From the NCBI GenBank assembly GCA_947497455.1, contig CANMGU010000002.1:1706506-1770505 (forward strand): DNA of 64,000 bases, written 5' to 3'. The position numbers and the translations under genes are program-made. Shown piece after piece: positions 40,254 through 44,630 of the stretch. The DNA comes from an uncultured Sphingomonadaceae bacterium (GTDB lineage: Bacteria; Pseudomonadota; Alphaproteobacteria; Sphingomonadales; Sphingomonadaceae). Under the pieces are notes generated by a model that saw only the letters and a list, made by a program, of their open reading frames with translations, was not told the DNA's origin and did no database searches. Numbering within the stretch: the first letter of the stretch is position 1; each line of letters begins with the position of its first letter.

Positions 40254-40676
40254 ATGGTTGAGGCGCTGAAGCAAGAAGACGTGCTGGGTTTTAAGCGCCC
40301 ACCCTGTTCCGAAGCGGTAAACGCCGTGATACTGGCGGCGGACACGGAAACCGGCGCTGTCCGGATGCAGTTTGATGCACCGCAGGCTTTTACGAGCCCA
40401 CGAGGCACCATTCAGGGCGGCTTTGTCGCGGCGATGGTTGATGAAGTGATCGGCATTCCGGTGCTGGTAAAATCCGGTGGTGAGAATGCACCGCTTACAC
40501 TGGATTTGAGCGTGACCTACATCAAACCGGTTCTGCCGGGGCGTGTTTACGGAGAAGGGCAGATTGTCCGCGTGGGACGATCAATCGCTTTTCTCGAAGC
40601 GCAACTCTATGATGAGGCGGGCGCGCTATTGGTGAAGGCCACATCTACGGCTAAGGTTGGACCGACGATAAAGTAA
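40254..40676 (+). CDS. PaaI-type hotdog thioesterase
   Basis: A 140-residue hotdog-fold protein of the PaaI/YbgC-like thioesterase group, hydrolysing acyl-CoA thioesters. The core strand/helix [20 protein letters not shown] has the GGxxAxxxDE pattern, and [16 protein letters not shown] matches the second half. The substrate is unknown. The ATG at 40254 has GGGGGA seven bases upstream and is preferred to the TTG at 40221. It sits between infB and rbfA, an unusual place, and overlaps the rbfA start by one base. Confidence 0.85.
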
Positions 40677-41086
40677 TGGCAAAATATAACGACACATCTC
40701 CTGAAGGCCGCTCAGTGCGGCTCTTGCGCGTGGGTGAGCAGGTTCGGCATATCTTGTCGGAGCTGCTGATGCGCGGGGAAGTGCATGATGATGTGCTGAC
40801 ATCTCACTCGGTCAGCGTCACCGAGGTGCGCATGTCTCCGGATTTGCGCCATGCCACGGTATTTGTGAAACCCTTGCTGGGCGCGAATGAGGCGGATGTG
40901 CTCAAGGCGCTGAAAACCAACACCGCCTATTTTCAGAAGCAGGTCGCCAGCCGGGTAAAGATGAAATATGCCGCTCGGCTTAAATTTCTCGCCGACGAGA
41001 GCTTTGACGAAGCGGCGCACATCGAAAATTTGCTGAACAATCCGAAAGTTGCCCAGGATTTGGGTGACGACCAGAGCGAAGAATAG
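40676..41086 (+). CDS. rbfA: ribosome-binding factor A
   Basis: A 136-residue 30S maturation factor with a KH-type fold. Recognisable parts are [20 protein letters not shown] at the start and [19 protein letters not shown] in the middle, ending in [22 protein letters not shown]. Its ATG shares a base with the thioesterase stop. After rbfA comes a palindrome-containing gap and a series of unrelated genes before truB, instead of truB directly. Confidence 0.95.
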
Positions 41087-41100
41087 TAAAAGCACATTTT

Positions 41101-41136
41101 CGCAATCCTGAACTTGATTCAGGATATCATTGCGGG
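41101..41136. repeat. palindromic element in the rbfA-tdk gap (same core as the truB insertion)
   Basis: ATCCTGAA and TTCAGGAT surround CTTGA (41105-41125), a perfect 8-bp inverted repeat. Outer bases CGCA(AT) and (AT)TGCG extend it. The 21-bp core is identical to the left half of the element inside truB at 44122-44142. Confidence 0.8.
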
Positions 41137-41152
41137 TCATATGGTTAACAGA

Positions 41153-41175
41153 GATTCTGGAACGATTTCAGAATC
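41153..41175. repeat. second inverted repeat before tdk
   Basis: GATTCTG (41153-41159) and CAGAATC (41169-41175) pair around 9 nt. It resembles a decayed form of the neighbouring palindrome (about 12 of 21 core positions agree) and lies 20 bp upstream of tdk. Confidence 0.5.
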
Positions 41176-41194: not shown

Positions 41195-41773
41195 ATGGCC
41201 AAACTCTATTTCTACTACAGCTCGATGAACGCGGGCAAATCAACCACATTGCTGCAGGCGGATTTCAACTATCGCGAACGCGGCATGCGCACGATGCTGT
41301 GGACGGCGGCGCTGGATGACCGCGAGGATGCCGGTTGGATCAACTCGCGTATCGGTCTGAAGAAAAAAGCCCATCTGTTTGAAAATGAAACAGATATGCT
41401 GGCAGATATCAGCACGCAACATGAAGAGAATACCCTGGATTGCGTGCTGATCGATGAAGCCCAGTTCATGACCAAGGACCAGGTCTTCCAGGTGGCGTTG
41501 GTCGCGGATCAATTGCGCATTCCCGTTCTTGCCTACGGCCTGCGTACCGATTTCCAGGCGGCTCTATTTCCCGGCAGTGCGCAATTGCTAGCCATTGCGG
41601 ATGAGCTGGTCGAAATCAAAGCGGTCTGTGAATGCGGCAGTAAATCGACGATGAACATGCGTGTCGATGAAGAGGGCAATCCTGTGCTGGCTGGCCAACA
41701 AACGGCCATTGGTGGCAACGAGCTATATGTCGCGCTGTGCCGCAAGCATTTCATGGAAAAACTCAATGGCTGA
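41195..41773 (+). CDS. tdk: thymidine kinase
   Basis: A 192-residue type II thymidine kinase that salvages thymidine with ATP. The P-loop is YSSMNAGKSTTLLQ near the N-terminus, the Walker B/active-site region is CVLIDEAQFMT, and YGLRTDFQAALFPGSAQLLAIAD is a family signature. Zinc-binding cysteines are CECG and a later CRKH near the end. It has its own gap upstream and probably its own promoter; it overlaps the next gene by 8 bp. Confidence 0.96.
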   Translation: MAKLYFYYSSMNAGKSTTLLQADFNYRERGMRTMLWTAALDDREDAGWINSRIGLKKKAHLFENETDMLADISTQHEENTLDCVLIDEAQFMTKDQVFQVALVADQLRIPVLAYGLRTDFQAALFPGSAQLLAIADELVEIKAVCECGSKSTMNMRVDEEGNPVLAGQQTAIGGNELYVALCRKHFMEKLNG

Positions 41774-43631: not shown

Positions 43632-44630
43632 TTGAAACACCATGGCTGGATCATTCTCGACAAACCGCTGGAGCTGGGTTCAACTCAGGCCGTTGGTGCG
43701 GTGAAGCGTAACCTGCGCGAAGCGGGGCTGCTCGGGAAGGGCAAGGACAAGACCAAGGTTGGTCATGGCGGGACGCTGGATCCGCTGGCGACCGGGGTCT
43801 TGCCGATTGCCATAGGCGAAGCGACGAAGCTTTGCGGGCGGATGCTGGATGCTTCGAAAATCTACGAATTCACGATTGCCTTCGGTAGCGAGACCGAGAC
43901 GCTGGATGCGGAGGGAGAGATTTCCGAAACTTCCGATCATCTTCCCACATTAGCGGAGGTAGAAGCGATATTGCCGGAATTTACCGGGGTCATTGATCAG
44001 ATACCGCCGAAATATTCCGCTCTGAAAATTGATGGCAAGCGGGCCTATGATCTGGCGCGGGCTGGCGAGGCGGTTGAGATGAAGATGCGGAGTGTGACGA
44101 TATATTCCCTGGAAATTCGTCATCCTGAACTTGATTCAGGATCCAGAGCATCAAGCGCAAGCGTTAGCGAAAACTCGCCCTGGATTCCGGATCAAGTCCG
44201 GAATGACGTTGTGCAAGAAGTGACCCTCACCGCCAATGTTTCGAAAGGTACTTATATCCGTTCTCTCGCGCGCGATATTGCCCGTGCACTGGGCACCGTC
44301 GGCCATGTTGCGATGTTGCGCCGGACCAAGGCCGGGCCGTTTACGCTCAAACATGCGATTTCACTGGACAAACTCAATGAAATTGGTAAGGGCGCGGACA
44401 TTAAAGATTATCTCTTGCCGCTTGAGGCGGGGCTGGACGACATCCCGGCTTTCGACCTCACTCCTGATCAGGCGAGACTGCTTCGGCAAGGCCAAGTGCT
44501 GGACGAACAGGATTTGATCGGGAACCCCGCCATAAACGGGCTTTTCTTAGCGACCGAAGACGGAAGTCCGGTTGCGCTGGCAGAGCTTGTTGATGGGATC
44601 GTAAAGGTCGTTCGCGGGTTTAATTTGTAA
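43632..44630 (+). CDS. truB: tRNA pseudouridine-55 synthase with a 31-residue palindrome-encoded insertion
   Basis: A 332-residue pseudouridine synthase that modifies U55 in the T loop of tRNAs. The catalytic aspartate lies in [14 protein letters not shown], with [31 protein letters not shown] and [14 protein letters not shown] as family signatures. The start is TTG at 43632, because AGGA is seven bases upstream and [10 protein letters not shown] begins there. Residues 163-193 (RHPELDSG to PDQVRNDV) have no counterpart in TruB and are encoded by two palindromes at 44118-44210. Removing these 93 bases restores E-I-V-Q-E-V in frame. The insertion is in the loop before the SKGTYIRSL strand and the rest of the protein is intact. 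Confidence 0.94.
44118..44208. repeat. bipartite palindromic element inserted in truB
   Basis: A 29-bp left half (44118-44146) and a 29-bp right half (44180-44208) are imperfect inverted copies (23 of 29 positions, all differences transitions) around a 33-bp spacer. Each half is itself a palindrome: ATCCTGAA/TTCAGGAT around CTTGA on the left, ATTCCGGA/TCCGGAAT around TCAAG on the right. TT occurs on both edges and may be a 2-bp target duplication. Confidence 0.85.

Follow-up and report, generated by a model that had tools for sequence, protein, structure and literature searches.

Among the closest described systems are the CGTC-tagged REPs, which were defined by a CGTC tag, stems of 8-9 bp that start with AT, loops of 4-5 nt, a CCA tail and an arrangement as head-to-head dimers (Di Nocera, De Gregorio and Rocco, 2013; PMC3733652). 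These repeats occur chiefly in alphaproteobacteria and are mostly intergenic, with some located inside genes (PMC3733652). The same survey assigned the Rickettsia palindromic elements RPE-4 and RPE-6 to the CGTC REP superfamily, classed dRS3 of Neisseria as a CGTC-1 REP, and found no transposase associated with CGTC REPs (PMC3733652). Regarding coding targets, truB was already listed as REP-interrupted in E. litoralis, S. alaskensis and S. maltophilia, RPE-1 was reported to interrupt truB of R. conorii, and tRNA synthetases were included among the interrupted genes (PMC3733652). Only recB was named as having a shared REP site, with the other genes of one functional category being interrupted at differing sites (PMC3733652). 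This paper is the only literature that we found on truB together with RPEs. Interruption of truB by REPs is therefore already known from a few species, and what the present analysis adds is that it occurs at one recurrent hairpin site.

The window, meaning the whole 64,000-nucleotide stretch of Sphingomonadaceae DNA that was analysed, contains a truB gene at 43632..44630 on the + strand, with a TTG start codon at 43632, that codes for tRNA pseudouridine(55) synthase. The gene product matches NCBIfam TIGR00431 with 218 bits (cut-off 151), has the Pfam domains TruB_N and TruB_C_2, and is encoded by a single genomic copy, as this is the only truB match in the whole source genome (Parasphingorhabdus, a genus assigned through named records whose TruB loci are shared). 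Within this gene a 91-bp palindromic element at 44118..44208 (+) encodes most of residues 163-193. The element is a head-to-head pair of CGTC-tagged REP units composed of a left unit at 44118..44146 (+), which reads CGTC / ATCCTGAA / CTTGA / TTCAGGAT / CCAG, a 33-nt spacer at 44147..44179, and a right unit at 44180..44208 (-), which reads CGTC / ATTCCGGA / CTTGA / TCCGGAAT / CCAG. Each half is thus a hairpin with an unpaired CGTC tag at one end, an 8-bp stem that starts with AT and encloses the 5-nt loop CTTGA, and a CCAG tail; both tags point outward, and the stems of the two halves are unlike, as in a heterodimer. The inverted-repeat arms of the whole element (44118-44149 and 44177-44208) are 32 nt each and 78% complementary. 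Together with a repeated TT the element amounts to 93 bp, or 31 stop-free codons in frame. Judged by its sequence, the truB element fits the geometry of the CGTC-tagged REPs of family 2 (CGTC-2) in every sequence feature by which these repeats are recognised. An Rfam scan of the truB region matched no family.

Additional searches of the source genome revealed that the element is one of many. The half-site pattern has ~24 matches at ≤2 mismatches and 33 at ≤3, as compared to 0 matches for the reversed pattern that served as a control, and a BLAST search with the insert region gave 15 matches; the remaining copies are found either outside of genes or at the ends of ORFs. Moreover, the DNA of the insert loop folds with a z of -4.5, a range (below -4) reached by 0/148 same-length control windows taken elsewhere in truB genes. 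The dispersal of the half-site and a folding score beyond the controls indicate that the element is not a product of chance. A degenerate second copy of the dimer is located in the window itself, at 41101..41170 (+; the right end is approximate, and the left unit occupies 41101-41125), in the gap between rbfA (40676-41086) and tdk (41195-41773). In two further complete genomes, 3/19 element loci are inside ORFs, namely truB in both and one apparent glyS, which indicates that truB is a main coding target and not the sole one, in agreement with the tRNA synthetases listed previously (PMC3733652). The glyS case (L368 1501-1561, genome G008) is an in-frame REP dimer in an ORF that resembles the gene for the beta subunit of glycyl-tRNA synthetase.

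A first-pass annotation, made from the sequence alone, had described an in-frame 91-bp palindromic element that adds 31 residues to TruB and whose halves are palindromic and inverted copies of each other; the repeat, unit, dispersal and folding evidence upholds each of these points. Two of its details did not hold. It had taken the repeated TT for a duplication made upon insertion, but TT/TT is found at truB only; none of the other dimers in the source genome (0/7), which are bounded by T...A, has a 2-bp direct repeat at its ends. Target-site duplication was thus rejected, and the truB element lacks the direct target duplication that marks an insertion sequence or MITE. It had also predicted an empty junction that reads E-I-V-Q-E. 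This junction was seen in no relative because every Parasphingorhabdus TruB that was read holds an insert or a remnant, and the precise boundaries of the element are inferred since an exact empty site was found in none of these proteins.

In regards to the enzyme, the SKGTYIR active-site strand (44241..44261, +) lies directly downstream of the hairpin that carries the insert and forms invariant columns in the multiple alignment of TruBs. Tyr208 and Arg210 of this strand align with E. coli Tyr179 and Arg181, which have a catalytic role, and no variation is seen in the multiple alignment at positions that correspond to catalytic residues. Alignment to E. coli chains places the hairpin tip between TruB strands, 11-16 residues ahead of the SKGTYIR tyrosine. 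The AlphaFold model of TruB has a mean pLDDT of 90, with values <50 at model residues 171-181 between strands 155-164 and 198-205, and its best PDB match is E. coli TruB 1k8w (E 3.9e-29). The TruB core and catalytic residues are intact in the presence of the insert, which is itself modelled as a loop without order at the tip of the hairpin.

When the TruBs of the genus are compared, this hairpin is found extended or altered in all 30 of the 30 readable Parasphingorhabdus proteins, with at least 8 different sequences at its tip. Nearly all of these loops are, at the DNA level, inverted repeats of other families. For example, the closest sister species (L010) retains just an initial portion of this element, leaving its TruB 19 residues shorter and in frame, and the loops of L016, L018, L022 and L029 look like a remnant beside a newer element. 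A single ancestral loop was rejected because the loops of sister species are unrelated in sequence. The first-pass annotation had considered that all relatives might carry an equivalent, non-palindromic loop. This is not what is observed, as the loops are mostly other palindromes and TruBs with short loops exist in the family.

The same pattern extends over the Sphingomonadaceae. Among 223 distinct family TruBs, drawn from an even genome sample plus named genomes with four loci being unreadable, 81 have a palindromic element at the hairpin tip, and these fall into ~12 classes as set by peptide patterns; in the even sample alone, carriers make up 38/139 loci and 27/79 genera. On a FastTree tree built from core TruB without the loop, parsimony requires at least 59 changes by class (multi-state) and 37 by presence or absence, relative to shuffled means of 80 and 66, respectively, with these counts combining gain and loss. 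A folding z < -4 is reached by 70/148 loops and by 0/148 control windows of the same genes. All forward CGTC units in the loops (23/23) begin in one codon phase (RH/CH...), and a second reading frame of the forward CGTC half is also open; use of a single frame agrees with selection for a reading that is hydrophilic and free of stops. In Sphingomonadaceae, palindromic families that are unrelated to one another have settled at this tip on many occasions, and both partly deleted inserts and remnants in stacks are seen there.

Other loops also occupy this tip. A conserved non-palindromic loop, SAFATTAGRPDPYDPAAPLELA, is present in 58/223 TruBs, many of them from the Erythrobacter group (L119, L122, L149), and in L196, L246, L267 and L271 a palindrome is added beside it. 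The TruB loop of L238 (G096) reaches ~91 residues and contains a stack of several REP-like pieces drawn from more than one class. Outside of the family, the non-family matches listed for a sample of 289 alphaproteobacterial genomes are at most ~14 residues longer than the short-loop query over the matched span. Six genomes were re-inspected, one of which (G238) has a match split at the hairpin by a stretch with no obvious palindrome. The hot spot therefore looks like a Sphingomonadaceae feature in this comparison, which leaves R. conorii and S. maltophilia aside.

Overall we consider it highly probable (roughly 85%) that a REP dimer of CGTC-2 geometry inserted into the TruB beta-hairpin at its tip, ahead of SKGTYIR, and that this tip is a tolerated and recurrently colonised site. 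As for mechanism, it is most likely that elements insert at random, that tolerance at a surface hairpin acts as the filter, and that decay and replacement follow. Specifically, CGTC REP dimers would insert at random, the TruB hairpin tip included, and with this tip serving as a permissive landing site survival would be expected only of insertions that keep the frame, bring no stop codon and fall in a surface loop. The effect of the element on TruB would presumably be near neutral, and inserts would then decay and be replaced, with partial deletions and stacked remnants as the result. The interpretation given in the first-pass annotation stands in so far as this is an in-frame, RPE-like insertion, and falls short in treating it as a single odd insertion, as it is one event at a recurrent site and the element belongs to a kind of repeat already named in print.

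The evolution of the loop was compared with that of the core in two clades that have comparable loops, the S-type (L012-L015, L031-L036) and the H-type (L025-L028). The dN/dS of the loop is 0.43 in the S-type and 0.98 in the H-type versus 0.09 and 0.08, respectively, in the core, indicating that the protein loop is relaxed. These values also bear on whether the loop was recruited adaptively, in which case a longer loop would help TruB in RNA handling, in a chaperone role or in partner binding, and palindromes would be ready-made stop-free material that is later refined. A ratio below 1 in the S-type, where all ten loops are of equal length, points in that direction, as do the near absence of an empty site in Parasphingorhabdus despite fast sequence turnover and the conservation of the SAFATTAGRPDPYDPAAPLELA loop, sometimes together with a palindrome. 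We nevertheless regard adaptive recruitment as doubtful, because the H-type ratio is near 1, the loop sequences are mutually unrelated, the insert is modelled as disordered, and TruBs with short loops are frequent in the family (52/139 loci of the even sample) and appear from the sequences sampled to be the rule outside of it.

Synonymous divergence in the loops falls below that of the core in these genes (0.13-0.17 versus 0.32-0.46 for the S- and H-types), a result that plain neutrality does not predict and for which younger loops, conversion by other copies and nucleic-acid constraint are candidates. Such a constraint would be expected were the palindrome to function as nucleic acid, with a hairpin in truB mRNA or DNA tuning truB-rpsO expression or blocking RNases and the protein loop being a by-product. 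This is also congruent with the strong folding of loop DNA and with stems that are mostly intact and show a few two-sided changes, at 2-4 per class. However, these few changes are not decisive for compensatory stem evolution, and in the two best-sampled classes compensatory changes are rare and several pairs are broken. Furthermore, equally structured repeats occur outside of genes, which indicates that the structure comes with the element, and the frame is kept in every case, which points to the protein being made. A nucleic-acid function therefore seems to us quite unlikely as the explanation of the truB insert.

The distribution of CGTC units in truB genes raises the further question of whether palindromes are truly targeted to truB by sequence or structure, beyond tolerance alone. 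There are 45 units within the loop (19.7 kb) versus 1 elsewhere in these genes (215.6 kb), and in the three genomes examined internal insertions are confined to truB and the one apparent glyS. Selection that removes insertions from the rest of an important gene explains this concentration, however, and the ~12 unrelated families at the site show no common target sequence or duplication, making targeting improbable. Finally, an ordinary lineage-specific expansion of the TruB loop with a coincidental palindrome has in its favour the long non-palindromic loops (SAF type) of some family TruBs, and is scarcely credible given the dispersed near-identical copies in the same genomes, which refute coincidence, and folding well beyond that of control windows.

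As to the mover of these repeats, the source genome has 0 Y1_Tnp matches, and a RAYT-type (Y1) transposase was thus rejected as the mover; yet it contains a stand-alone GIY-YIG gene, the sole such gene in this genome, at C1:544204-544425. In the region C1:544036-544488 (locus L047 1071-1525), a single CGTC unit precedes this gene of 102 residues and a pair of units follows it, a layout that is repeated in related species. In the genus, 12 of the 21 stand-alone GIY-YIG genes examined have CGTC units at a distance of up to ~200 bp, on one side or on both, and often as a single unit upstream and a pair downstream; when the subfamily of the flanking REPs is mapped on the phylogeny of 24 GIY-YIG proteins it requires 3 changes, the minimum, a count as low as which occurs in 0/200 shuffles. 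No CGTC units were observed at the 12 GIY-YIG loci that score highest in the genus. Nine of these 12 are unmatched by tblastn with the REP-flanked type, and the 12 appear to be mostly another, more distant paralogue group, which suggests that the CGTC association is limited to certain GIY-YIG clades. There are also no V-type palindromes near the unflanked GIY-YIG genes. Ssn proteins are site-specific single-strand GIY-YIG nucleases that are paired with the Neisseria NTS/dRS3 palindromic repeats.

The relation between GIY-YIG genes and CGTC REPs is an association only. With less confidence than is given to the insertion itself, we infer from this gene arrangement that CGTC units may be moved by the stand-alone GIY-YIG nucleases that they flank, and not by a RAYT. 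A broader and tentative reading, which we think possible and rather unlikely, is that CGTC REPs are non-autonomous GIY-YIG elements, the counterpart of the RAYT REPtron, and that the TruB hairpin captures successive families that have been partly domesticated as a functional loop, with an insert captured long ago as the origin of the conserved SAFATTAGRPDP loop. The flanking pattern in any case provides a concrete candidate mover of CGTC REPs, a point left open by the 2013 survey.

Intragenic palindromes have so far been viewed as accidents scattered over genes. Here one site, defined to the residue in an enzyme that is widespread and encoded by a single gene copy, was struck dozens of times by unrelated elements. 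This constitutes a natural replicate experiment, and the TruB site allows tests of how mobile DNA adds protein segments, of how fast inserts decay and of whether added loops have any function.

The comparison with known systems can be summarised as follows. The GIY-YIG nuclease together with a dispersed palindromic repeat is a likeness to the Ssn and NTS/dRS3 pairing of Neisseria, with Ssn membership of the Parasphingorhabdus genes being putative only. As in the RAYT/REPIN system there are dispersed inverted REP pairs and a nuclease gene flanked by its matching REPs; in contrast to the GTAG tag and RAYT gene of that system, the tag here is CGTC and a GIY-YIG gene takes the place of one with a Y1 transposase domain. 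With Rickettsia palindromic elements, the truB insert shares the property of being a short palindrome in frame within a protein-coding gene, although in a different host order. The likeness to these elements drawn in the first-pass annotation was apt and the kind of event already known, because RPE-4 and RPE-6 are CGTC repeats as well and interrupted truB genes have been listed (PMC3733652). The CGTC REPs of 2013 agree in tag, stem, loop, CCA tail, dimers, alphaproteobacterial host and an interrupted truB. The truB element is thus ordinary as a member of this known class of repeats, and what is remarkable is its site. The differences are that the 2013 survey found no transposase whereas CGTC units here flank stand-alone GIY-YIG genes, and that one truB tip has been the recurrent site for ~12 classes of element, some of them non-CGTC.
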